A DNA stretch of 64,000 nucleotides, from the NCBI RefSeq assembly GCF_014195535.1, contig NZ_JACIBY010000004.1, forward strand, positions 188,522 through 252,521, given 5' to 3'. Made by a program: the position numbers and the translations under genes. Under the pieces are notes generated by a model, which did not search any database, had not been told where the DNA came from, and saw only the letters and a program-made list of their open reading frames with translations. This document shows, one piece after another, positions 8,398 to 29,373 of this stretch (position 1 is the first letter of the stretch; every line of letters begins with the position of its first letter). Origin of the DNA: Runella defluvii (GTDB lineage: Bacteria > Bacteroidota > Bacteroidia > Cytophagales > Spirosomataceae).

Positions 8398-9333
8398 CTA
8401 TTTCTGTTTTTTAATACCTTGTTTTTCAAACCATTTGGTGCATTCTAGGAAGAAAGACTGAGGTTGTTCTACAAACGGGAAATGTCCTGCGTCTTTAATG
8501 ATTACTTCGGTCGATTGAGGAATCTGTTTGGCAATACGATCCGATTGAGAAATTTTGTCGCAAATAAAATCATCGTCTCCTACAACGACGAAAGTGGGGG
8601 CGTTGATAGAGGAAAGTTTCGGAAAAAGATACTCCGTTCCAAAATTGGCGGTTTGGGTATATTTGTCCACTTGGTCGTTAAAACTGCCCGCTTTTTTGAT
8701 AAAAGCCTCTATGTTTTTTTCGTCGTGAAAATAAAATGGAATAATAAACTTCATAGCTTGGGTAAGCGTCATAGTGGGGTCGTAGTTCATAAGCACCTTG
8801 ACTCCTGCTTCAAAATAGGGTTTTTCCTTACGTTTTAATATGGCTTTTTGAATTTCAGCTTCGTACAAGCTGTCCCGACCCGCCAAAGCACCAATGGCAA
8901 CAATGCCATTAACATTGTTGGGGTGGCTAATACCGTACGAAAGCACCTGAAACCCACCCATTGAATGGCCTGAAAGCCACACTTTGGGCTGATTGAGGTA
9001 GTGCCTTAGGGCATCCATGTCCTCCATAAAAAACGAGGTAGTGTATTGCTTGGGGTCTTCGGGGCCTTTGGATTGTCCACTATGGCGGGTGTCGTAATAA
9101 ACCATGGTAAAGTACTGCTCAAACGGATGAAAATAGTTTTTGAGGTACTCCATCGAAGCACCCCAGCCTGGGGTTGGGAAGAGCATAACGGGGCCTTTTC
9201 CTGCCACATAGTAGTGCAGGGTAGTTCCATTCACAGTAGCAAAGTGGCTTCCTGGCGATAAGCGATTTTGAGCGTAGCTTAGGTGAGCTATGAATAAACA
9301 AAAAACGAGTTTGGTGTAACGTGTAAGTGACAT
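8398..9333 (-). CDS. Secreted alpha/beta hydrolase
   Basis: 311 residues. A signal peptide ends near SYAQ (residue 22), suggesting periplasmic export. The catalytic triad is readable: Ser124 in GHSMGG, an Asp in the GDDDFICD stretch and His284 in DAGHFPF. An oxyanion-loop GWG follows the LFPTP strand, and the cap resembles the proline-iminopeptidase/epoxide-hydrolase branch. The substrate is unknown. It is the first gene of a likely three-gene minus-strand run with the DinB-like and SnoaL-like genes downstream. Confidence 0.85.
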   Translation of the reverse strand: MSLTRYTKLVFCLFIAHLSYAQNRLSPGSHFATVNGTTLHYYVAGKGPVMLFPTPGWGASMEYLKNYFHPFEQYFTMVYYDTRHSGQSKGPEDPKQYTTSFFMEDMDALRHYLNQPKVWLSGHSMGGFQVLSYGISHPNNVNGIVAIGALAGRDSLYEAEIQKAILKRKEKPYFEAGVKVLMNYDPTMTLTQAMKFIIPFYFHDEKNIEAFIKKAGSFNDQVDKYTQTANFGTEYLFPKLSSINAPTFVVVGDDDFICDKISQSDRIAKQIPQSTEVIIKDAGHFPFVEQPQSFFLECTKWFEKQGIKKQK

Positions 9334-18973: not shown

Positions 18974-19676
18974 GAAATGTTTGAATCGCCTGTGGCGTTT
19001 GTTTGCCCCATTCGGTTACTTCTCCTACAATTTTTAAAGGTGCTTGTGAGCGATAAGAACGAGTTAGATTGCCTGGGAATTTTTTATCAGTGAGGTTCGG
19101 GTCATGCTCAAAACTACCCGTAGGCTCAATGATATACACGCGTTCGGGGCCATCGCCTTTGGCCAATGCTGCCGCAAGACCTGCACCGCTGACCAGCGCC
19201 GTGAAATAAATATGATTCATTACCAGTTCAGATTGGTAGTTGGAAAGACCACCTGCTATCAACAAATCACCCAGTTGCAAATCAGCTTTTGTACCATGGT
19301 AAAAAGGGCCTTTGTCAGAAGGAGCTGCTCCATATAAAGTACTTAGTTCGTGATTCTTTTTGGCGTTTTCCACATCATCCAAGTCGTCATAGCACGCCGA
19401 AATTTGGGAATACAAAGTGGGGAGTGCGCTTTTAGTAGCTTCATTGTCAGCCTTTAAAGCATGTTCTAACGCAATGGTTAGCCAGTGTAAGCGGCCAGCG
19501 ACGGTAGGTTGATGTCGAGCTACGTAATAGGCAGCAAGAAACTTTTCAAACTCATTGGTAGCTTCCTCCCAGCCTTGTCGAAATAGGTGATTGGCTTCTT
19601 CGGGATTGCCCTTGGCCTCCATTTCCATTCCTTGAAGGCAGCGTTTCACAATAGTGTTGAAAGGTGAAAATTCCAT
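18933..19676 (-). CDS. arr: Rifampin ADP-ribosyltransferase (Arr) with N-terminal TPR-like helical domain
   Basis: 247 residues. The C-terminal 125 residues are Arr: FYHGTKADLQLGDLL (His127), NHIYFTA, VYIIEPTGSFEHDPNLTDKK with the conserved Asp192, then FPGNLTRSYR and VGEVTEW. Arr uses NAD+ to ADP-ribosylate the 23-hydroxyl of rifamycins and inactivate them. Known stand-alone Arr proteins are about 140 residues; here an extra domain of about 118 residues, rich in helix and TPR-like (AKGNPEEANHLFRQGWEEAT, ALEHALKADNEAT), comes first. The cupin gene is 3 bp upstream and the secreted 532-residue gene overlaps downstream. Rifamycin activity is inferred from conserved residues. Confidence 0.85.
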   Translation of the reverse strand: MEFSPFNTIVKRCLQGMEMEAKGNPEEANHLFRQGWEEATNEFEKFLAAYYVARHQPTVAGRLHWLTIALEHALKADNEATKSALPTLYSQISACYDDLDDVENAKKNHELSTLYGAAPSDKGPFYHGTKADLQLGDLLIAGGLSNYQSELVMNHIYFTALVSGAGLAAALAKGDGPERVYIIEPTGSFEHDPNLTDKKFPGNLTRSYRSQAPLKIVGEVTEWGKQTPQAIQTFRDKLDNNKGEIIN

Positions 19677-19679
19677 TTG

Positions 19680-20030
19680 CTAGTTTTGGGGGTTTAAATC
19701 GATTCTATCGCCGTGGGCTTTGGGTTCGGAGATGACTAAGAAGTGAAGGTCAGTAGCGCCTTCGTTTTTGATTTTGTGCTTTTTGTTGGCTTCTACATGA
19801 CAACCTTCGTTGGTGTTTACTACAAAAACTTCGTTTTCGATTTCAAATGTGGCTTGTCCTTCCAAAATAAAGAAAAATTGCTGCGCTTTTTGATGGTAAT
19901 GCAAGGCTTCAGACGTATGGGGTGGCATTCGTTCTTGAATGATACTCAGTGAGTTGGTTTTTAACAAATGCCAACCGTCGCAGTTTTGTCCCCAAGTATA
20001 ATGTTCGGAGGAGTCTTTACTTCTTTTCAT
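19680..20030 (-). CDS. Single-domain cupin protein
   Basis: 116 residues with both cupin motifs: SEALHYHQKAQQFFFILEG (His pair and Glu-like ligand position) and EGCHVEANKKHKIKNEG. It is compact, cytoplasmic, with no fused DNA-binding domain. Such proteins bind a metal and a small ligand, but the reaction cannot be read. Its stop is 3 bp before the Arr gene start, so the two are co-transcribed; whether the cupin alters the same compound as Arr is speculation. Confidence 0.85.
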   Translation of the reverse strand: MKRSKDSSEHYTWGQNCDGWHLLKTNSLSIIQERMPPHTSEALHYHQKAQQFFFILEGQATFEIENEVFVVNTNEGCHVEANKKHKIKNEGATDLHFLVISEPKAHGDRIDLNPQN

Positions 20031-20071
20031 GGATGACTGAAAAATAAACTTTAGAGGATGGTCTGTGTATG

Positions 20072-20353
20072 TTAGTTTTTCTTAAAAAGTTGCTCGCCAA
20101 ACATCTCGGTTTTGAAGAGACCAATGGTGTCTCTGGTATGGCCTTCTCCGAACGATTGGGCGACAATCGTTTCGTTGCCCACTTTTAAAACTAGCGAATC
20201 GCGGAAGCTATTTTGGGGAACAACATACTTGTTTTTTTGGGTAAAAGATTTATAAACTACTTTGGCTTTGAAGCGAGGTTTTTTTTGGGCGCTGGCGTAG
20301 AAAAATGAGCAGGCAAAGAGTAAGAATAACAATGGCTTTAATAGGCTTTTCAT
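20072..20353 (-). CDS. Small exported protein of unknown function
   Basis: 93 residues. A clear signal peptide (MKSLLKPLLFLLFACSFFYA, cleavage after ASA) leaves a mature protein of about 70 residues, basic and beta-prone (KAKVVYKSFTQKNKYVV). No family recognised. It sits 12 bp downstream of the SDR gene stop on the same strand, so it likely shares that transcript. Confidence 0.65.
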   Translation of the reverse strand: MKSLLKPLLFLLFACSFFYASAQKKPRFKAKVVYKSFTQKNKYVVPQNSFRDSLVLKVGNETIVAQSFGEGHTRDTIGLFKTEMFGEQLFKKN

Positions 20354-20365
20354 TGGTGCTGTGGT

Positions 20366-21103
20366 TTATAGTCCGTTTTTCATGATGTTATCGGCAAGCT
20401 TTGGCAAAAATCGGTGGATGCGCCGTAGCCATTTGGTCTTGCCGATGTAACTCTCAAATTTACCGGCCTTGAAATTACGCAAAAATTCATCGGTTAATTC
20501 CTTGGCCGTGATTTTTGATTTTCCGCGCCCTGCGGTCATGGGCGTGTCTATCAAAGCAGGAATGATTTCGAAAACCTTGATGCTCGTTTCTTCCAACTGA
20601 TACCGTAGAGTTTTGCTAAAACTGTGAAGGGCGGCTTTCGTAGCACAATATACCGAGGCCGATTTTTTGGGAGAAATGAATAATCCACTACTTACATTGA
20701 TAACGGCGCTGTTTGGGTTTTTGAGTAGCAATGGAAGCAATAAACCAGTCAATTGGAGGGGGGCTGTGAGGTTGGCTGACACTTCGTAGTCGATTTTGTA
20801 CGTAAGATTAGGTTCATCTATAAAATGGTAATTGTACTGAACGGCGGCATTGTTGACCAAAACGTTCAGGTCGGGGTGCTGCTGCTCGATAAACAATACC
20901 AAATCGTCCAAGGAACGCTTGTCGGTGAGGTCGCCCACAAAAATGTCGATGTCGGGGTACGTGGCTTGTATTTCTTCCAATTTTTCTTGGTTGCGGCCAG
21001 TGATAATGACTTTGTTGTTGAGGGTCAGAAAACGGGTGGCTAAAGCAAGCCCAATTCCCGAAGAACCGCCCGTGATTAAGATGGTGTTTCCAGAAGTATT
21101 CAT
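20366..21103 (-). CDS. Short-chain dehydrogenase/reductase (DltE-like)
   Basis: 245 residues. The Rossmann cofactor motif TGGSSGIG is at residues 11-18, NNAA at about 87, the catalytic Ser in INVSSG and YCATK supplies Tyr-x-x-x-Lys. The Arg after the second strand (TGRNQEKL) suggests NADP(H). The subgroup is like DltE/YciK-type oxidoreductases; the substrate is unknown. A Crp-type regulator gene lies 81 bp upstream on the same strand, one of several regulator plus SDR pairs in this window. Confidence 0.88.
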   Translation of the reverse strand: MNTSGNTILITGGSSGIGLALATRFLTLNNKVIITGRNQEKLEEIQATYPDIDIFVGDLTDKRSLDDLVLFIEQQHPDLNVLVNNAAVQYNYHFIDEPNLTYKIDYEVSANLTAPLQLTGLLLPLLLKNPNSAVINVSSGLFISPKKSASVYCATKAALHSFSKTLRYQLEETSIKVFEIIPALIDTPMTAGRGKSKITAKELTDEFLRNFKAGKFESYIGKTKWLRRIHRFLPKLADNIMKNGL

Positions 21104-21184
21104 TGGATGTAAAATGATTAGTAAGATGACGTCACAAAGCTGCGGAATACCTCATCCTTTTTCATTTACATAGGTTGATAAATG

Positions 21185-21760
21185 CTACTTGCCCGCCATT
21201 TTTCGCCGTATTCGACTGAGCTGCGTAGGGGTAATTCCCAAGTAAGAAGCGATGTGGTACTGGGGGATTTGTTGTTCCAACTGCGGAAACTCCTTCTTGA
21301 ATAGTTGGTAACGCTTGTCGGCGTCCAGCAGTACGATTTCGATTTCCCGTTGTTCTTTTTGCACAAAAAATTGCTCGGCCAATATCCTTGCTCCGCGTTC
21401 GATGTCGGGGCACGTAGGGTAGAGGTGCTGAATGTCTCTAAACGACGCCACCTGAAGGGTACAGTCGGTAAGGGCTTGTTGGATAATTTGGTTGGGGCGA
21501 CCCGTGATGAGCGATGCGTAGCCACCCACGAAGCAAGGATTTACAAAAAAGTGTTTGTTATACTCGACAGCTTCGGCATTTCGGTAAAACGCCCGAAGGA
21601 TACCTTTTTCCAAAAAACCGATTTCTTTGGCCACCTGCCCATCATCAATGAAATACGCTCCTTTTTGCAATGTTTTGGGGGTAAACAACGCCGCAAATCG
21701 CTCCCAACTCTCAGGCGATACAGGAGTGAGTCGCTGGAAGAATGTTTTTAACTCGGTCAT
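21185..21760 (-). CDS. Crp/Fnr-family transcriptional regulator
   Basis: 191 residues. An N-terminal cyclic-nucleotide-type beta roll (KGAYFIDDGQVAKEIGFLEKG) is followed by a C-helix and a HTH read as YHIASYLGITPTQLSRIRR, the usual Bacteroidota Crp arrangement. The cAMP-contact residues of E. coli CRP are not conserved, so the ligand is unknown. It precedes the SDR gene on the same strand and probably governs it. Confidence 0.86.
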   Translation of the reverse strand: MTELKTFFQRLTPVSPESWERFAALFTPKTLQKGAYFIDDGQVAKEIGFLEKGILRAFYRNAEAVEYNKHFFVNPCFVGGYASLITGRPNQIIQQALTDCTLQVASFRDIQHLYPTCPDIERGARILAEQFFVQKEQREIEIVLLDADKRYQLFKKEFPQLEQQIPQYHIASYLGITPTQLSRIRRKMAGK

Positions 21761-21817
21761 GGAAGTGGGTTTCCAAAATGCTTTTTGTGTAAACTATTAT
21801 CAATAGATTTCACGGCT

Positions 21818-22008
21818 TAATACCTTGTTTGAAAAGTAATATGATATTTTTTATCCCGCAGATAAACGCAGATTAAAATTCAACGCGGATTGGCGCAGAT
21901 AAGCTCATTAGCCGAATTAATCACCCAAAATCTGCGGTTATCTGCGGTTTTAGAATCAGCGTAAATCTGCGGGTAAATTATAAAGAAACTTAATAAACAA
22001 CGTACTAA
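21818..22008 (+). repeat. MITE-like inverted repeat, copy A
   Basis: A ~190-bp element matching copy B (25801-25992) in inverted orientation with no mismatch I can find over the inner ~170 bases. Its ends form imperfect terminal inverted repeats (TACCTTGTTT and, read from the other side, TACGTTGTTT), flanked by TAA on each side. Inside, CCCGCAGAT...ATCTGCGGG arms and repeated ATCTGCGG words make nested hairpins. No coding capacity. The right end overlaps the stop codon of the DUF998 gene. Confidence 0.85.
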
Positions 22009-22619
22009 ATAATCGCCGAATTTGTTCTAAAGTCCTCTTTATTAGTAAAATACTCAAATCCGAGCACGAGTAGCATGGAGTAGATTAAGGTTACTTTCTG
22101 CATAATCGCCAATAAACCCCAATCGCCAAAGCCGTATAGAAACAAGGTGTAATAAAAGATACCCATACAAAGAATGCAGCCAAATTTAAAGAAATGTAGC
22201 TTCGTTTTTAGGCTAAAAACTGTTATGTAAAACAGCCCAAGCAAAGATGACGTACTGGAGAGGGTTACCATAACGTCGTGCAACGGGGTGGCAATGAGGA
22301 AGTTGAAGAGGATGTCGCTGAAGCCAACAATCGTTAAGACCAATGAGGCGTGTTTGTTAGACATCTTTTTGGCCATATTGATAAAAAATAGACCAAAGCC
22401 CACGGAATTAAAAGCTATGCCAATGGTCGCCCAGACTCTCGACGGGTTTTCGGCGCCATTGAGGGCTTTGGGTTGAAATAAATTGCTGATGAAATTTTGA
22501 GTCCAGTCGAATCCCACGGAGTTTTTGTCGTGCAGGGATCCGCCAGGATAAAGATAAGCACCCGTACAAATGAAGCCTACCGAAAGAAGAAGGCACATTA
22601 AAACCAAGTGTTTCTTCAT
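22005..22619 (-). CDS. DUF998 family membrane protein
   Basis: 204 residues with six hydrophobic helices. The first loop has the family pattern LYPGGSLHDKNSVGFDW and LFQPKALNGAENPSR, and helix 2 is IGIAFNSVGFGLFF. DUF998 proteins are integral membrane proteins of unknown role (frataxin/Fet4-like annotations are not reliable). Its start overlaps the DUF1003 gene stop by 4 bp, so translation is coupled. The stop codon lies inside the end of MITE copy A, meaning that the last residues may have been altered by the insertion. Confidence 0.8.
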   Translation of the reverse strand: MKKHLVLMCLLLSVGFICTGAYLYPGGSLHDKNSVGFDWTQNFISNLFQPKALNGAENPSRVWATIGIAFNSVGFGLFFINMAKKMSNKHASLVLTIVGFSDILFNFLIATPLHDVMVTLSSTSSLLGLFYITVFSLKTKLHFFKFGCILCMGIFYYTLFLYGFGDWGLLAIMQKVTLIYSMLLVLGFEYFTNKEDFRTNSAII

Positions 22620-23086
22620 TTTTTTGTTTCAAAAGCCTCCAGCCTGTTTAATATCTGAAGAATAAGGTCATTCTGATTTTCCAAATGTTTCAGAATCGCC
22701 TCAATTTCACTTTCTGCTTTTTTATTGATGGAAAAATCTTGTTCAGCCCTAAGTTCAGAATGCTTCGACTGCAAGTTTTGCCCAACCATAATAAGGGGCA
22801 TAAGAAAAATCTGAACCATGTTGGAGATAAACAACCACAAAACAAAAGCTGGGTACGGGTCAAACCGCAAGGTGGTGGGAGCGAGGGTGTTCCAGCCAAG
22901 CCATAAGGCTGTCCAGCAGAAGATTATGAGAAAAAATCCCATACTCCCGACATGGTCAGTAATCCACAAAGCAGCCTTGTCGAGGGTAGAAAGCTTTTCT
23001 TTATGCTTCAGATTGACGTTATAAATAGGGTGGTAGTTGTTCTTGATTTCCTTAACGGATTGAATATCTTGATGTTTCATGGGCAA
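22616..23086 (-). CDS. DUF1003 family membrane protein
   Basis: 156 residues. After a 45-residue polar start come two membrane helices: DHVGSMGFFLIIFCWTALWL and PYPAFVLWLFISNMVQIFLMPLI. FDPYP between them and the MPLIMVGQN exit are DUF1003 hallmarks. The C-terminal third is a charged coiled coil with heptads (SEIEAILKHLENQNDLILQI). No biochemical function is known. It forms a coupled pair with the DUF998 gene. Confidence 0.85.
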   Translation of the reverse strand: MPMKHQDIQSVKEIKNNYHPIYNVNLKHKEKLSTLDKAALWITDHVGSMGFFLIIFCWTALWLGWNTLAPTTLRFDPYPAFVLWLFISNMVQIFLMPLIMVGQNLQSKHSELRAEQDFSINKKAESEIEAILKHLENQNDLILQILNRLEAFETKK

Positions 23087-23104
23087 ATCATGGTAAGTGT
23101 CGGA

Positions 23105-23464
23105 CTACATTTTTGACGTGCTTCGGGCGTTGTTTTCGCTTACTCTGAATTTTACAATCCTTTCCATGAGTTGGTAGGGCATAGGTTGGTCAAGCGGAAA
23201 TTGCACTGACCCTTTTCCTTGCTTATACGTTGAAAGCTCGGCTTGAAATTCGTCGTGCCCCGATGGCGTTGCATAAAATCCGATGTGGTTTTTAAATGCT
23301 GCAAAATAAACCAATGGTTTTTTGTGTGTCTTGTAAGCAGGCATTCCGTACGCAAACGATTCCTCTGCTTCGGGGGCATTGTCCTTTATCAATGTTCTAA
23401 TGTTTCTCAAGATTTCCTGCACATTGTCGGGAAACTGCTGCATGTATGTTTCGATTTCGTTCAT
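23105..23464 (-). CDS. DUF1801 / YdhG-like protein
   Basis: 119 residues. The family pattern is evident: DNVQEILRNIRTLIKDNAPEA, then EESFAYGMPAYK, PLVYFAAFKNHIGFYATP and a C-terminal GSVQFPLDQPMP segment. DUF1801 proteins, which include the so-called iron chaperone YdhG/Fra, have a small alpha/beta fold; the ligand is uncertain. It is first in a likely operon with DUF1003 and DUF998, 18 bp upstream of DUF1003. Confidence 0.85.
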   Translation of the reverse strand: MNEIETYMQQFPDNVQEILRNIRTLIKDNAPEAEESFAYGMPAYKTHKKPLVYFAAFKNHIGFYATPSGHDEFQAELSTYKQGKGSVQFPLDQPMPYQLMERIVKFRVSENNARSTSKM

Positions 23465-23567
23465 TTTATTTATTATGTTATTATTTGCTGGATTTTAGTT
23501 GGTTATTTTCTGATAGCGCAAGTGCGGCCGCTTGTGTCATCGAAGTGAGAAAGCTATATCAAAACAA

Positions 23568-23615
23568 CTACAAAAGCAAAAAAGCAGGCCAAAACCTGCT
23601 TTTAGAGTAGCGCTA
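23568..23615 (-). terminator. Terminator hairpin derived from the IS91-type end sequence
   Basis: AAAAGCAGG (23580-23588) pairs with CCTGCTTTT (23595-23603) across a 6-base loop; on the minus strand it is followed by a T-run, so it ends the dehydrogenase transcript. The 41-base text CAAAAGCAAAAAAGCAGG...CCTGCTTTTAGAGTAG closely matches the same part of the IS91-type relic at 39227-39267, so the terminator seems to be a co-opted mobile-element fragment. Confidence 0.65.
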
Positions 23616-23616
23616 T

Positions 23617-24531
23617 TCAGTCACTTATTTTGAGTACGACATTCCCCTTTTTTCGTCCTTCGTCAACATACCTATGTGCTTCTATTATTTCAGCCATTTG
23701 AAAAGTCTTGTCAATTGTCGCCTTAAAAGCTCCTTTTTCAAATAGCTCTTTTAACAGCTCTAATTGTTGTATTGTGTCGGAAGCATATTCATTTACACTC
23801 TTATAAATTCCGTTTTCGTTTAAGAGTGTCGCACATTTTTTTCGATTGAATGCCCCAACGGCATCAAAAATTACATCAAACTTTTCGGCTCGATTAGTAA
23901 AATCTTCTTTGTCGTATAAAATGATGTTTGTAACGCCTAGTTCGCCAACAAGTTTTTGCCCTCTGGAACTGCAAACAGCAGTTATATCAGCCTGATAATG
24001 TTTGGCTATCTGGATGGCTGCCGTTCCTACTGAACCTGTTGCGCCGATAATCAGGATTTTTTTGGTTGGCTTTTCGGCAATTTTTGCTTTTTCTAGAAAA
24101 TAAATGGCTGTATGTCCACCAAAAACGATGGCTGCGGCTTCTTCGTAGGTAGCATTTTTAGGCATTTTAAGTACATGGCTGTGCTGGTCAACGGCTATAT
24201 ATTCGGCATGAGTTCCCAATTTAAACCCCCTCATCCCGAATACGTTATCACCAACTTTAAATTTGGAAACCTTGTCTCCAACCGCTTCAACAATACCCGA
24301 AAAAGTTGTTCCCAAAATCGGTTGTCTAGGTTTTGAAATACCTAAAACCAGCCGCATGATGACCTTCATAAATCCCTTTACACGAAGGCTTCTTACCCTA
24401 GCATCGCCAGAGTTGACGGTAGTAGCAACTATTTTGACAAGAATTTGGCGGCCTTTAGGTATTGGTTTGGCAACCTCCTGAAGTTGTAAAACCTCAGGAG
24501 GGCCATATTGGGGGCAGATTACAGCTTTCAT
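23617..24531 (-). CDS. MDR-family NAD(P)-dependent oxidoreductase
   Basis: 304 residues from the ATG at 24531 (MKAVICPQYGPPEVL), the normal MDR start; the longer frame to 24567 has a hydrophobic non-family tail. Catalytic domain: VNSGDARVR, GTTFSGIVEAVG and VGDNVFGM; the nucleotide-binding motif IIGATGSVGTAAIQIAKHY follows, then IFDAVGAF. The catalytic-zinc ligands of alcohol dehydrogenase are absent, so it is of the quinone-oxidoreductase (QOR) type. Substrate unknown. Confidence 0.87.
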   Translation of the reverse strand: MKAVICPQYGPPEVLQLQEVAKPIPKGRQILVKIVATTVNSGDARVRSLRVKGFMKVIMRLVLGISKPRQPILGTTFSGIVEAVGDKVSKFKVGDNVFGMRGFKLGTHAEYIAVDQHSHVLKMPKNATYEEAAAIVFGGHTAIYFLEKAKIAEKPTKKILIIGATGSVGTAAIQIAKHYQADITAVCSSRGQKLVGELGVTNIILYDKEDFTNRAEKFDVIFDAVGAFNRKKCATLLNENGIYKSVNEYASDTIQQLELLKELFEKGAFKATIDKTFQMAEIIEAHRYVDEGRKKGNVVLKISD

Positions 24532-24544
24532 TTGTTTTTTAACA

Positions 24545-25177
24545 TTAAAAATTAAAACCAAAATCAAACCCAGGTTGAATAAAGTAGTTATTCCATTTTT
24601 GTTCTACTGCCTTAAAAGATGCAGGAACATTGGTTCTTATAGGCCAATAGCTAATTCCGATAGCTGGTTCAAAAAAGAAACGGTTTTTAAAAAACTTAAA
24701 CTGGTACCCCAAATAAGAGTCCACATACAACGTGTAGCCATTTCCAATTTTTTTCCCATTCTTATCCATGTATTTTTCAAAAGCATTCAATGCTTGAACA
24801 GACACATAAGCTCCCTTCCACCAAAACCGCTGATAGCCTATGGTAGGTGCCAGTATGCGAGCATGGCCAGGGTAGTTTTCTCCTGGGGCATCAAATGACG
24901 ATGAACTAAAAGGGATACCTATTGGCCAGGAATAAATGGAGCGTTTGAATCGAAAGGAAATAATATCTTTGGGGGTTATTCGATAGCCAACATTCAATTG
25001 GAAATACTCAGGGTTATTTGTTTTATCAAAATTACCCAATAACCACAAAGTGCTGCCAACCCACCATTTTTTATACGTGCTGTCTTTTTTGGCATCTTGT
25101 GCACTCATCGGCAAACTGCTTGCCAACATTAAGGTAAGTCCAATCCATAAAATCTTCTTTTGCATCTCTGTTTTCAT
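24545..25177 (-). CDS. Predicted outer-membrane beta-barrel protein
   Basis: 210 residues. A signal peptide (ILWIGLTLMLASSLPMSAQ) is followed by alternating aromatic/polar strands, e.g. YFQLNVGYRITPKDIISFRF, GYTLYVDSYLGYQFKFFKN, RFFFEPAIGISYWP, and a C-terminus ending FDFGFNF, with the terminal Phe of outer-membrane barrels. Length suggests an eight-strand barrel. No family named. It lies 14 bp upstream of the oxidoreductase, probably in one transcript; the link in function is unclear. Confidence 0.75.
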   Translation of the reverse strand: MKTEMQKKILWIGLTLMLASSLPMSAQDAKKDSTYKKWWVGSTLWLLGNFDKTNNPEYFQLNVGYRITPKDIISFRFKRSIYSWPIGIPFSSSSFDAPGENYPGHARILAPTIGYQRFWWKGAYVSVQALNAFEKYMDKNGKKIGNGYTLYVDSYLGYQFKFFKNRFFFEPAIGISYWPIRTNVPASFKAVEQKWNNYFIQPGFDFGFNF

Positions 25178-25290
25178 TCATGTTAAACGATGCTGCAAAG
25201 GTAGATTGGGGAAATGTCTGACCTCGTTCACTTAAGTTAAGAAATGCACCTTTTCGGTGTAGAAAGCTATGTTTAATCAAAGTTTTGGGC

Positions 25291-25345
25291 GCTTCATGGC
25301 TTTGCTTTCACAGACTACGAAGGCTTTGTTATTGGGGGGCGTTGC
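25291..25345 (+). repeat. Relic of the IS91-type terminal sequence
   Basis: GCTTCATGGCTTTGCTTTCA followed by CAGACTACGAAGGCTTTGTTATT matches the end text of the relics at 27757-27795 and 39371-39425 (CTTCATGGCTTGGC..TTCGGC.ACCACGAA..C). Only this end piece is present, without transposase code. Confidence 0.6.
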
Positions 25346-25381
25346 TTTTGATTGACGGTAATGTCAAAATTGTTTCCATTC

Positions 25382-25756
25382 TTATAAGATGCAACCAATT
25401 TCCCAAATGTGTCCAAATGGGTCTTTCAGTTTTCCTATTCTCCAATCATCTTCAGTTGTCATTGGACAAATTTCTGTTGCACCGAACTTTAGTGCATTTT
25501 TGAATAATTCGTCAGCATTTTTAGTTTGTAGTATTATTCTAACTGGGCTACTTGAATTCTGGTCGGGGCTTAGATTACCATTGTTCGGTTCTTCGTCGCC
25601 AACATAAAATTCTGCTTTGTCAATTTCAATTACCGATGACAGTTTTTTGTCTGGCATTTCAAATCTTTGTTTTTCAATGGCCCCAAAAGCAGAAATATAA
25701 AATTCGACAGCTTTTTTTCCATTGTTTACTGTCAAAAAAGGCTTCACTGTTGTCAT
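25382..25756 (-). CDS. VOC-superfamily (PhnB-like) protein
   Basis: 124 residues from the ATG at 25756 (MTTVKPFLTVNNGKKAVEFY), the regular PhnB-type start; the ATG at 25771 adds five residues. Features are AFGAIEKQRFEMPDKKLSS, a glyoxalase-like FYVGDEEPN and the C-terminal LKDPFGHIWEIGCIL, with ligand-like His and Glu. The family includes antibiotic-binding and dioxygenase-like members; the ligand is unknown. MITE copy B begins 45 bp upstream. Confidence 0.85.
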   Translation of the reverse strand: MTTVKPFLTVNNGKKAVEFYISAFGAIEKQRFEMPDKKLSSVIEIDKAEFYVGDEEPNNGNLSPDQNSSSPVRIILQTKNADELFKNALKFGATEICPMTTEDDWRIGKLKDPFGHIWEIGCIL

Positions 25757-25800
25757 GTAATTATCTTTCATGAAAAAATTGTTTTTAGGTTTTGTTATCT

Positions 25801-25992
25801 TAAATACGTTGTTTATTAAGTTTCTTTATAATTTACCCGCAGATTTACGCTGATTCTAAAACCGCAGATAACCGCAGATTTTGGGTGATTAATTCGGCTA
25901 ATGAGCTTATCTGCGCCAATCCGCGTTGAATTTTAATCTGCGTTTATCTGCGGGATAAAAAATATCATATTACTTTTCAAACAAAGTATTAA
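25801..25992 (-). repeat. MITE-like inverted repeat, copy B
   Basis: Inverted copy of the element at 21818-22008. Ends read ATACGTTGTTT on the left and, in reverse complement, ATACTTTGTTT on the right, both flanked by TAA, which would fit a 3-bp TNA-type target duplication as made by some IS5-related transposases (family inference). It lies between the VOC gene and the HxlR gene, and bounds a 3.8-kb segment together with copy A. Confidence 0.85.
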
Positions 25993-26013
25993 ATGCTACT
26001 CGGGGTGGTAGTT

Positions 26014-26382
26014 TTATTTTTTATCACAGTAGCCTTTGTTATCTGTTTTCATATTTTCTCGCCCCCAGTTGTACATACTGTCAATGATGGGGAGCAACGT
26101 TTTACCATAGTCAGTGATGGTATATTCTACCCTTGGTGGAATTTCTGGAAAAATTATCCTTTCAATGATTCCATCGGTTTCCAATTCTCTTAGCTGGTTC
26201 GTCAACGTTTGCTTACTTATTTCAGTAATATTTTTAAGTAAAATACTATAGCGGTTTCTGTCTGTTCTTATCATGTGAAGAATACTTGGTTTCCATTTCC
26301 CACCAATAATATTCATACAATACACCACAGGACAATTCCCTGGTGTAAACTCTTTTGTCTTTCTAACGGCCGTATTTTTCAT
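26014..26382 (-). CDS. HxlR-family winged-helix regulator
   Basis: 122 residues. The Cys near the start (NCPVVYCMNIIGGKWKPSIL) is followed by the HTH LLKNITEISKQTLTNQLREL and the wing PPRVEYTITDYGKTL. It belongs to the HxlR group that often controls a neighbouring oxidoreductase; it is divergent from the QOR-type gene at 26483 across a 100-bp spacer. Redox or quinone sensing is inferred from the family. Confidence 0.9.
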   Translation of the reverse strand: MKNTAVRKTKEFTPGNCPVVYCMNIIGGKWKPSILHMIRTDRNRYSILLKNITEISKQTLTNQLRELETDGIIERIIFPEIPPRVEYTITDYGKTLLPIIDSMYNWGRENMKTDNKGYCDKK

Positions 26383-26400
26383 TAGTCTATTATTTTAGCC

Positions 26401-26453
26401 TATGTACATATTTTTTGTTTATACAGATTATTTAGGCAAAGGTAATAAATTTG
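26401..26453. promoter_or_regulatory. Divergent HxlR/QOR control region
   Basis: A perfect palindrome TATGTACATA (26401-26410) lies 18 bp from the HxlR start. A Bacteroidota -7 element TAAATTTG (26446-26453) points toward the QOR gene, 29 bp before its ATG; no well-spaced -33 TTTG was found. The palindrome is a candidate HxlR site. Confidence 0.35.
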
Positions 26454-26482
26454 CCCCGTTAGTACTTTAAACAGTTTTTATA

Positions 26483-27406
26483 ATGAAAGCAATACAATAC
26501 CAAACTTTTGGGGCATCAGATGTGATAGCGTTTAGCGAAGTTGCTCAACCAGAAATCAAAACGCAAGACGATATTTTAATTCAGGTAAAAGCCGCGAGTA
26601 TCAACCCCTTAGATCTCAAAATTCGTATGGGATATATGCAACAAATATATCCTATTCAATTGCCATTTATCCCTGGACTGGATGCTGCGGGCATTGTGGT
26701 GGCCGTGGGCGATAAGGTGCAGAATTTTAAAGTAGGCGACGAAGTAATGGCCGTAACTATGGCGAATGCGTATGCCGAATTTGTCGTTGTGCATCAGCAA
26801 TTTGTTTCTCACAAGCCGAGTAATCTATCTTTTGAAGAAGCGGCCTCTTTGGCGGTAAACATCGGCACCGCAGAAAATATATTGTTTACTGAAGGGAAAT
26901 TGGAAAAAGGCCAAAAAGTGTTTATACAGGGAGCGGCTGGTGCAGTAGGTGCTACGATGGTGCAATTAGCAAAAAACCAGGGCCTTTATGTGTATGCCAC
27001 CGCATCAGGAAAAGGTGTGGAAATGGTGAAAGAATTAGGGGCCGATGAAGTTTTTGATTATAAAACAACGGATATAATTGCACAAAATATTGAAGTAGAT
27101 TTGGTAGCTGATTGTGCTGGAGGACAATCACAAGCCCAATTGTTTGAGTTGCTTAAAAAAGGGGGGAAATTATTGAGTATTGCAGGAATGCCCTCACCAG
27201 AACTAGCCCAGCAACATGGCGTAGAAGCCCGATTTGTATCTGCAAACCTCATGGCTAAAAATCTAGAAAATGGATTGCAGCTTGTGAAAGAAGGTAAAAT
27301 TAAACCCGTTGTTACCAAAACCTTTCCATTGGAAGCAGCAGCACAAGCCCAAGATTTTCTCGCGGCAGGTGGCGTGAATGGTAAAGTAGTTTTGACGGTA
27401 AACTAA
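26483..27406 (+). CDS. QOR-type NADPH:quinone oxidoreductase (zinc-free MDR)
   Basis: 307 residues. MDR features in order: SINPLDLKIRMGY, LDAAGIVVAVGDKV, VGDEVMAVT, then the Rossmann motif VFIQGAAGAVGATMVQLAKN (AAGAVG binds NADPH), ATASGKGVEMVKELGADEVF and the C-terminal GGVNGKVVLTVN. No catalytic zinc ligands are present. The family reduces quinones or enones with NADPH. It is divergently paired with a HxlR regulator, so it is probably induced by electrophiles. Confidence 0.9.
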   Translation: MKAIQYQTFGASDVIAFSEVAQPEIKTQDDILIQVKAASINPLDLKIRMGYMQQIYPIQLPFIPGLDAAGIVVAVGDKVQNFKVGDEVMAVTMANAYAEFVVVHQQFVSHKPSNLSFEEAASLAVNIGTAENILFTEGKLEKGQKVFIQGAAGAVGATMVQLAKNQGLYVYATASGKGVEMVKELGADEVFDYKTTDIIAQNIEVDLVADCAGGQSQAQLFELLKKGGKLLSIAGMPSPELAQQHGVEARFVSANLMAKNLENGLQLVKEGKIKPVVTKTFPLEAAAQAQDFLAAGGVNGKVVLTVN

Positions 27407-27464
27407 TTAAGATACTGTTGGGGCGTGGCAAAATACGGCTGAATGATTCCATACAGTCCCTTCG

Positions 27465-27795
27465 TCAGGTTCCGTACATGGTCATTTGCTCCCCCAAAGC
27501 TCCCGCCCCGTTAGTTAACGGAATGGGCAGGGGGGGCACTACCCCCAACCCAAACCCATGCAAACAACCAACAAACAGCTATAAAAGAAAAAAAGCAGGC
27601 CCAAGCCTGCTGTGAAACCAGACCGCTGGTGCGGTAGTTGCCAGCTCGACGACTGGGGCGGTACTCCTCAACTCCGTAACAAAAGTAAAAGGTTTGGTGA
27701 GTACTCAACGACAGGCTGGTCGCCCGAGTTTCGTTCAATATCGAGCGCTTTCGGGAGCTTCATGGCTTGGCTTTCGGCTACCACGGAACGGCGGT
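27465..27795 (+). mobile_element. IS91-family 3' end relic
   Basis: 27457-27513 encodes a C-terminal transposase remnant (FVRFRTW...PPKLPPR then TAG) that lines up with FVRIRHASYMG...QSIRPVS of the relic at 39090. After it come GTTAGTTAACGGAATGGGCA, a GCAGG...CCTGC hairpin (27592-27611), GGTTTGGTGAGTACTC and the end text CTTCATGGCTTGGCTTTCGG, in the same order and spacing (within about 30 bp) as at 39150-39420. The rest of the element is missing. No other coding sequence was seen between 27407 and 27800. Confidence 0.75.
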
Positions 27796-27800
27796 GGTTT

Positions 27801-28136
27801 TTACATCAAGTTGGCTTTGGCTTTTGCAAGTTTTCCGTCTTTGAAAGTGAAATCAAACATTCCACCGATTTTTCCCTCTGGAAATTCGCCTGTAAATTCA
27901 ACTTCAATATGCGCTTTGTTGTCACTAATGATTTCTAATTTGACAAGTCGGGTTTGTGTCTTGTAGCCAATGAAATAGCTCTCAAAATAATTCTTTATGC
28001 CTGAATGCCCTTTAAAAACTTGCCCTACTGATGGGTCGTCAAGTACCGCATTTTTGTGCCATTTGTCCAAATACTTTTCCGTGTAGTAAGCATTGCTAAC
28101 AGCAAGCCAATCCTCTAGAAATAATTTAATGTCCAT
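27801..28136 (-). CDS. SnoaL-like / NTF2-fold protein
   Basis: 111 residues, beginning MDIKLFLEDWLAVSNAYYTE and continuing with WHKNAVLDDPSVGQVFKGHS, then a beta sheet including AHIEVEFTGEFPEGKIGGMF. It fits the SnoaL-like polyketide-cyclase group; no reaction can be named. It is followed immediately by the IS91-type end relic, and preceded by the MazG-like gene (1-bp gap), indicating co-transcription. Confidence 0.8.
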   Translation of the reverse strand: MDIKLFLEDWLAVSNAYYTEKYLDKWHKNAVLDDPSVGQVFKGHSGIKNYFESYFIGYKTQTRLVKLEIISDNKAHIEVEFTGEFPEGKIGGMFDFTFKDGKLAKAKANLM

Positions 28137-28137
28137 T

Positions 28138-28449
28138 TTATTTTAATAATTTTTCCGTTTTCGTTAGAAAGTTTTCTACTGCTTTTTCAATGTCAATATC
28201 CATTCTATCGGCTAAAACAGTCAGCCACCAAATACATTCACCTAATTTATGTTCAAGTTCAGTGTCTGTATTATTGGCGGGCCAACGTTTTTGTTGCGAC
28301 ATTGTGTGGCGACCAACCAAAGCAGCATCGGTTAAAAATGCCAACGCATCTTCTTCCACCGTCCATTCGCTACCGTGATGTTGTTTTTCTAATTGATGAT
28401 AGGTTGCTCTAATTTTCTTTGAGCGTTCAATAACTTGTTTGATATCCAT
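28138..28449 (-). CDS. MazG-like nucleotide pyrophosphohydrolase-type protein
   Basis: 103 residues, all helical. KLGECIWWLTVLADRMDID resembles the MazG/dCTPase helix that carries the ExxD metal ligands, and DALAFLTDAALVGRHTMSQQ may be the first ligand helix. The full EExxE-x12-ExxD set is not complete by eye, so catalysis is uncertain. It lies between the AraC gene (6-bp gap) and the SnoaL-like gene in a tightly packed run. Confidence 0.6.
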   Translation of the reverse strand: MDIKQVIERSKKIRATYHQLEKQHHGSEWTVEEDALAFLTDAALVGRHTMSQQKRWPANNTDTELEHKLGECIWWLTVLADRMDIDIEKAVENFLTKTEKLLK

Positions 28450-28455
28450 TTCTTT

Positions 28456-29373
28456 TTAATTGAAGGATTGTTTAAATGCTATCGGGGTGAGACTAGTTTT
28501 CTTCTTAAATAATCTGTTGAACGATTGTGGCTGTTCAAACCCTAATTGATAGGCTATTTCTGAAACAGATAAACTGGTAGCTGTTAAATACTCTTTTGCT
28601 TTTTCAATCAACTTACCATGTATATGTTGTTGTGCATTTTGCCCTGTAAGTGAACGAAGTAAATCACTTAAATAACGTGGAGAAACATTTAATTGCTCTG
28701 CTAAATATTCAACGGTTGGTAATCCGTTATTTATTGTTTCTTCCTTATCAAAATACTCGTTTAAAAGTGCCTCCATTTTTGTAAGTAAATCGTTGTTTAC
28801 TGTTTTTCGGGTAATGAACTGACGTTTGTAAAAACGATTGCTGTAATTGAGTAAAACTTCTATTTGTGAAACCATAACGTCCTGACTAAAATCGTCAATC
28901 GTGCTATTCAGCTCCTCTTTTATGTTTTCAAAAACTGAAAAGATGATTTGCTTTTCCTTGTCCGATAAAAACAAGGCTTCGTTTACTGAATATGAAAAAA
29001 AACCAAAGTTTTTGATTTTGGTGCCTAGCTGATAATTTCGAATAAAATCAGGGTGGAAAAGCAACGTATAACCTGAATAGTCCTTTTCTTCTTCATTACT
29101 TGAAATAACCTGGTTGGGGGAAATAAAAGACAAGCCTCCTTCATCAAAATCGTAATAATTTTGTCCGTATTTTATCTTTCCCGTTAGGCTTTTCTTGTAA
29201 GAGATTTTATAAAAATCCAACAACAAGGCGTTGGGTAATTCCTCATAAGGTGTTTTTATATCGGCATAATTTACCAAACTCACCAACGGATGTAAAGGTT
29301 TGGGAAAGCCTAAAGCCTTGTGCAATGCCGAAATTGAATTGAATTTTTGTATTGTACTGTCGTCTTTTTTCAT
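28456..29373 (-). CDS. AraC-family transcriptional regulator
   Basis: 305 residues from the ATG at 29373 (MKKDDSTIQKF); an ATG seven codons upstream is also possible. The N-terminal cupin-type sensor (about 20-185) includes SYKKSLTGKIKYGQNYYDFD; the C-terminal double HTH has VEYLAEQLNVSPRYLSDLLR and VSEIAYQLGFEQPQSFNRLF. It is a paralogue of the AraC gene at 30461. It lies 13 bp downstream of the SDR gene on the same strand, and probably regulates it. Confidence 0.9.
   Translation of the reverse strand: MKKDDSTIQKFNSISALHKALGFPKPLHPLVSLVNYADIKTPYEELPNALLLDFYKISYKKSLTGKIKYGQNYYDFDEGGLSFISPNQVISSNEEEKDYSGYTLLFHPDFIRNYQLGTKIKNFGFFSYSVNEALFLSDKEKQIIFSVFENIKEELNSTIDDFSQDVMVSQIEVLLNYSNRFYKRQFITRKTVNNDLLTKMEALLNEYFDKEETINNGLPTVEYLAEQLNVSPRYLSDLLRSLTGQNAQQHIHGKLIEKAKEYLTATSLSVSEIAYQLGFEQPQSFNRLFKKKTSLTPIAFKQSFN

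Follow-up and report, generated by a model that had tools for sequence, protein, structure and literature searches.

The window considered here is a stretch of 64,000 nucleotides from Runella defluvii (NCBI RefSeq assembly GCF_014195535.1, contig NZ_JACIBY010000004.1, positions 188,522 to 252,521 of the forward strand), whose genome assembly comprises 8.0 Mb on 50 contigs. It harbors a 3.8-kb block of genes bracketed by two facing 184-bp repeats, which are copies of a miniature inverted-repeat transposable element (MITE). Copy 1 occupies positions 21821 to 22004 on the + strand, running from TACCTTGTTT to AAACAACGTA, and copy 2 occupies positions 25805 to 25988 on the − strand, inverted with respect to copy 1. 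Each copy contains a hairpin-forming interior with CGCAGAT/ATCTGCG motifs (21856 to 21973 and, equivalently, 25836 to 25954). Copy 1 lies upstream of a cNMP-binding-like gene, beginning 61 bp from its start, and adjoins a − strand gene at 22005 to 22619 that has no Pfam match at an E-value of 0.001 and was labeled DUF998 in the original prediction. Copy 2 starts 34 bp upstream of the start of a VOC/glyoxalase-like gene (25382 to 25771, − strand).

The two copies had been described in the original prediction as facing, near identical, and MITE-like, with inverted ends of the type TAC-N-TTGTTT, and these features hold on full alignment. Both have the form TAC...GTA and differ at 1 of 184 bases. 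The surrounding inverted arms (21817 to 22009 and 25800 to 25992, 193 nt) are 98% complementary, and two of their three mismatches lie outside the element, within the adjoining target duplication. The termini are imperfect inverted repeats of the type TACCTTGTTT / TACGTTGTTT, sharing the TAC-N-TTGTTT pattern; TACNTTGTTT is present at both ends, and the repeat is imperfect beyond it. No transposase gene is carried, the longest open stretch in six frames being 40 residues, with no open reading frame of 60 or more amino acids inside the element. The repeat is far above chance, with a best match at another locus of the same genome of E = 5.5e-93. The element is thus assigned to the MITEs as a short, geneless, dispersed, multi-copy repeat with terminal inverted repeats, target duplications, empty sites, and ends in common with insertion sequences (ISs).

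Each copy is flanked by its own target duplication. Copy 1 lies between CTTAA (21816 to 21820) and CTAAA (22005 to 22009), a match at 4 of 5 bases, while copy 2 lies between two exact TTAAA repeats (25800 to 25804 and 25989 to 25993). The TAA borders noted previously are therefore real, but as parts of 5-bp duplications. The corresponding locus of the relative G010 lacks both elements: at the copy 1 site it reads CTTAACC, with a single CTTAA, and at the copy 2 site it reads TTAAATGGTACTCG, with one TTAAA followed by TGGTACTCG. Because each copy has its own duplication and each site is empty in G010, the repeats in the window arose by two separate insertions of a non-autonomous MITE of 184 bp, a pair ordinary in kind. 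Beside the empty copy 2 site, G010 also carries 147 bp that are absent from the window (L091, reverse complement, 9021 to 9168).

The same signature extends across the family. Among 19 two-ended copies (11 from R. defluvii, four from G010, and four from the relative G006), with ends set by hand from the alignment and with the truncated L012, the copy on G006:C17, and the partial copy of G002 left out, the two flanks agree exactly at all 5 bp in 12 copies, and 16 copies have an exact match of 4 or 5 bp. Mispairing of the flanks in 5000 shuffles gives a mean of 0.96 and a maximum of 6 for exact 5-bp matches and a mean of 2.6 and a maximum of 8 for matches of 4 or 5 bp. The target is mostly YT(N)AR, with T at the second base of the left flank in 17 of 19 copies and A at the fourth in all 19. 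Further empty sites were sought in G010, G003, and G006. Clean empty G010 sites are found for four of eight additional copies tried (L004, L006, L008, and L009); three of these sites contain a single TTAAA, TTTAA, or TTCAG, and the fourth, a 4-bp case, has TTAT. The total is thereby 6 of the 10 copies of the R. defluvii genome examined. The L008 site is empty in G003 as well, and the L006 site is covered there by a deletion; L005 is equivocal, and L002, L007, and L011 have no contiguous match.

Twelve copies are found in the R. defluvii genome when 40 of 63 first-look candidates are scored: eight whole, two in two pieces around a deletion, and two shorter. A further 18 short matches each cover part of the element. 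Two of the twelve lie within 4 kb of each other, which is only a little unusual (P about 0.064 for uniform placement). L009, L010, and L011 (162, 149, and 147 bp) have internal deletions with both ends kept; the flanks match at 4 of 5 bases for L009 and exactly over 4 bases for L010 and 5 for L011. L009 (near base 1479) appears by eye to sit in an arm of a terminator-like hairpin (AAAAAGCGTTCAG...CTGAACGCTTTTT).

Matches of any kind occur in 9 of 99 genomes, R. defluvii included. A search of relatives, suggested in the original prediction, recovers near-identical copies only in G010 (at least four), diverged copies in G006 (at least five), and a partial copy in G002, the counts for relatives being lower bounds with eight candidates scored per genome. 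A pattern derived from the element matches only four contigs of one metagenome-assembled genome named Runella sp., in a search from which records near the R. defluvii genome were possibly excluded, and no match on plasmids or phages is found at an E-value of 1e-5. A transposase match on G002:C5 shares its end coordinate with a match on the Runella slithyformis record NC_015704.1, in keeping with Runella as the genus group. Comparison of the 12 R. defluvii loci with 12 others, including four from G010, reveals no shared flanks.

Near identity is a property of the MITE family and is not specific to the pair in the window, since copy 1 is one mismatch away not only from copy 2 but also from a copy on contig 19 and from a G010 copy. 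Gene conversion between the two window copies, one of the explanations put forward earlier, is consequently not needed. The recent movement proposed alongside it is supported by the unshared flanks of the R. defluvii and G010 loci and by the pairwise differences of 1 to 8 bases among seven full-length (184 bp) copies of the R. defluvii genome. MITE copies are 98-99% alike between these two genomes, whereas the G010 alignments left of 22.7 kb have 88.8-90.4% identity, which suggests that arrival or spread of the family, or of its source, came after the divergence of the two genomes; the alternative is constraint on the element.

The ends of the MITE resemble those of IS630-family elements. A scan of 13 genomes of the genus for TACNNTGTTTNANNAGT recovers the ends of the MITE together with some isolated matches and, in G005, a run of contig ends, with 3 of 12 matches in the R. 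defluvii genome lacking a partner end and a reversed control giving 0 to 3 matches per genome. The G005 contig ends belong to a longer repeat and make up its two termini, TACACTGTTTTAAAAGT and TACCTTGTTTAATTAGT. A reading frame in one terminus aligns with the C-terminus of a G006 transposase (74% over 38 residues, E 5e-18), and a frame in the other with the start of an IS630 orfA from G008 (57% over 23 residues, E 1e-6). In G006, an IS630 fragment at a contig end terminates in TACAGTGTTTAATTAGT and encodes 262 residues matching the NCBIfam model NF033545 and the Pfam domain DDE_3 (PF13358). The G008 transposase matches NF033545 (IS630) and PF13358, and its orfA alone falls below the NF033545 cut-off. 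The ISs of G005 and G006 are known from fragments or termini, neither as a whole intact IS. Seven G005 contigs (C4, C6, C17, C23, C32, C36, and C38) terminate within a single IS630-like element, which points to an IS in multiple copies as the cause of the assembly breaks.

In a comparison of the first 32 bases, the right end of the G006 MITE agrees with that of the G006 IS at 28 positions and with that of the G005 IS at 26; the right ends of the window MITE and the G005 IS likewise agree at 26. None of 20,000 shuffles is as good as either score. These comparisons comprise 36 pairs, from which the L208 rows, out of register (L208_b wholly), are set aside, and use single-base shuffles of AT-rich 32-mers, so that the smaller scores mean little.

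Since no cognate transposase is found in R. defluvii or G010, the MITE was probably mobilized in trans by an IS630-type transposase, whose action and former presence we infer from the sequences of relatives. The element carries IS630-family-like ends (TACNNTGTTT...) and a geneless, hairpin-forming interior. The transposase would come from an IS that the R. defluvii genome lacks or has lost, or that its assembly missed; it would recognize the MITE ends and insert the element at mostly YT(N)AR targets, duplicating 4 to 5 bp. The block between the copies already stood in its present order and orientation before either insertion. Taken as a whole, two independent insertions of a MITE with IS630-like ends, moved in trans by an IS630-type transposase, are a highly probable account of the locus.

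Several observations weigh against this account. The driver itself is not found in either genome that carries near-identical copies: the G006 transposase gives no match in R. defluvii (G000) or G010 at an E-value of 1e-25, and their DDE_3 matches on G000:C1 and G010:C2 lie between other inverted repeats. A short C-terminal DDE_3 piece is also present on G000:C31. The MITE therefore seems to be an orphan in its own assembly, and an IS hidden in an assembly gap is possible. The left end of the window MITE is nearer to the right end of the G005 IS (24 of 32) than to its left end (20 of 32; shuffle 0.0017), and a simple end-for-end deletion derivative is therefore not demonstrated. Several of the 36 end comparisons are weak, the lowest reaching 14 to 16 of 32 (misplaced L208_b rows apart). 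Three of the 19 two-ended copies lack an exact duplication, the duplication of copy 1 is inexact at 4 of 5 bases, and no movement has been observed. Finally, the duplications of 4 to 5 bp, established from both flanks and empty sites, do not fit the TA rule of characterized IS630 elements.

According to the available portion of one study, IS630 and ISY100 insert into TA and duplicate it (PMC2170065). Some MITE target sites contain no TA at all (TTGAT for a G010 copy and TTCAG for a copy of the R. defluvii genome). Longer duplications are also seen around IS630-type elements with both TAC ends, as CTAAA/CTAAA in G004 (L167, the same place as L189) and TTTAA/TTTAA in G172 (L187). At other IS loci with TAC ends, the flanks match at 4 of 5 bases (L200) and at 3 of 5 (L193), the latter around a shortened element. 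Seven IS loci of genus g5 lie in CTAG, where a 4-bp and a TA duplication give identical sequence, and they count for neither. These few IS copies suggest a possible subgroup of IS630 with a longer stagger. A broader proposal, for which the chances appear evenly balanced, is that a Bacteroidota clade of IS630-family transposases, seen here in the family of Runella, departs from the TA rule, makes staggered cuts of 4 to 5 bp at YT(N)AR, and is the driver, also between species, of a superfamily of MITEs with CGCAGAT hairpin interiors that extends across the genus. Neither this MITE nor IS630 duplications of 4 to 5 bp are mentioned in the available parts of PMC2229807, PMC3852290, PMC2170065, PMC4596501, and PMC9769881, ISfinder lying outside the scope of this comparison.

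The departure from the published TA rule (PMC2170065, as far as available) would be expected if a transposase of another family, one that makes 4-5 bp duplications, moved the MITE and its likeness to IS630 ends were convergent. This is unlikely given the end identity of 28 of 32 within a single genome, G006, and the existence of IS630-type elements that themselves bear the CTAAA and TTTAA repeats.

The interior of the MITE raises a different alternative, namely that the repeats are kept for a function of the hairpin, as a transcript end, an RNA, or a protein site, and not as mobile elements. Each copy contains six ATCTGCG/CGCAGAT motifs, accounting for 12 of the 14 in the window, and the region from 21817 to 22009 folds as one long hairpin on either strand (z of −6.0 and −5.6), so that the whole element forms a single structure; a wider family of CGCAGAT hairpins within the genus points the same way. 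However, an alignment of the 12 mostly near-identical copies gives no covariation support (a double change in 1 of 54 pairs, term +0.93), Rfam returns no match for positions 19000 to 29000 at gathering thresholds, terminator-like sites are absent from the MITEs, and the 12 R. defluvii and four G010 loci share no flanks. A conserved RNA structure was therefore rejected in spite of the strong fold, and retention for a hairpin function is quite unlikely overall.

The wider hairpin-repeat family has CGCAGAT interiors and ends TACNNTGTTAGCTAAGTTTC / TACATTGTTAAGTAAATAG and is found in G005 and G008 (L034, L035, L041, and L053, near base 1500). Its flanking repeats include TTTAT and, by eye, TTTAG, CTAAG, and TTAG. 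Of 296 genomes sampled across the phylum, 27 contain ATCTGCGNNNATCTGCG, R. defluvii among them with 34 sites; the control gives a single match, and several other genera of the sample have many sites.

Two inverted repeats of 184 bp that differ at one base are in principle of sufficient length for RecA recombination. The original prediction had proposed a phase-variable segment in which homologous recombination between the facing copies flips the 3.8-kb block; on this reading, the expression of genes within or beside the block would change. The available genomes do not bear this out. G010 is collinear with the window from 16.4 to 27.8 kb, in the same orientation, apart from the stretch at 22.7 to 23.1 kb and the two missing MITEs. 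In G003, the segments from 15.0 to 19.7 and from 22.6 to 25.2 kb lie on one strand in the same order; a match to 20.5 to 21.7 kb (68% identity) lies elsewhere on that strand, beyond the match to 15.0 to 19.7 kb, so that the order is not wholly the same. R. defluvii, G010, and G003, the three assemblies in which most of the block is present, all have it in one orientation. The order and orientation of the block thus predate both insertions, and the pair has no demonstrated joint function.

The flanks lead to the same conclusion. By hand comparison, the current order pairs them at 4 of 5 and 5 of 5 bases, versus 4 of 5 and 3 of 5 for the flipped order; the flanks of each copy pair as its own duplication and are contiguous in G010, a pairing that a fixed inversion between the copies would have scrambled. 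Nor is there an evident switch. No recombinase match is found among the ten proteins scanned at 20.4 to 27.4 kb, two of which have no match of any kind. A search of the − strand, which carries the block genes, finds no TANNTTTG-type box at 21700 to 22100 or 25700 to 26100, the + strand lying outside that search. Matches of the sigma-70 type are near chance over 21700 to 26100 (14 versus a mean of 11.2). Phase variation is very unlikely on these grounds, and low-frequency RecA inversion in part of a culture is possible. A composite transposon, in which inverted copies of one mobile element brought in the block they now bracket, is barely credible and is refuted by the MITE-free G010 locus, where the block stands at the same place, and by a target duplication that differs for each copy.

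The gene at 22005 to 22619 has its 3′ end at copy 1, with its stop codon in the duplication, and its product ends in ...NSAII in place of the ...NSEVKKL of G010. Each MITE has, at one of its ends, a sigma-70-like match of 9 of 12 positions; terminator-like matches are near chance (4 versus 4.5 expected). An effect of the MITEs on the expression of neighboring genes is possible.

The G010 comparison reveals two further differences in this region. G010, though collinear elsewhere in the locus, lacks most of the DUF1003 gene (22695 to 23110), which G003 has. Between 24600 and 27400, where the genes for the barrel protein, the VOC protein, HxlR, and the alcohol dehydrogenase lie, identity to G010, taken per 200 bases, climbs from about 90% to 96.5-99.5%; this rise suggests recent recombination or transfer of the stretch.

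Several bacterial repeats are comparable to the MITE. Cardinium belongs to the same order as Runella (Cytophagales). MITECca01 of Cardinium cOegib is, in the available text of PMC9769881, a bacterial MITE of roughly 240 bp whose ends resemble those of its parental IS; set beside the window MITE by description, it differs in that its parent belongs to the IS982 family and has intact copies in the genome. RUP of Streptococcus pneumoniae is alike in being short, non-coding, and dispersed, with IS630-like ends and a proposed mobilization in trans, here by IS630-Spn1 (PMC2229807, in its available part). RUP is 107 bp long, is repeated 108 times, and occupies TA-containing targets (same portion of PMC2229807), whereas the window MITE has 184 bp, 12 copies found, duplications of 4 to 5 bp, and an interior that folds as a hairpin, and its genome yields no cognate IS.

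ISY100/IS630 belong to the same transposase family as the proposed driver, yet in the accessible sections of PMC2170065 TA is duplicated in 34 of 39 in vitro products of ISY100, compared with 4 to 5 bp for the MITE. BrickBuilt of Porphyromonas gingivalis, also from the Bacteroidetes, is a MITE with internal short repeats; again compared by description, it differs in its interior, a 23-nt minisatellite, and in its target duplications of variable length (PMC4596501, as far as available). Correia/NEMIS and other bacterial repeats, compared by description from other organisms, share the small size, terminal inverted repeats, and target duplications (PMC2229807, available part).

For R. defluvii, this analysis removes the false lead of a genetic switch and puts in its place a readable history of insertions. 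Given that no flanks are common to its loci and those fetched from G010, MITE copies could act as strain markers. The length of the duplication is the part most worth following up. Transposases of the IS630/Tc1/mariner group are described as specific for TA, with a duplication of 2 bp; if the stagger of 4 to 5 bp is true, target choice and the spacing of strand transfer would become directly comparable within one transposase family.

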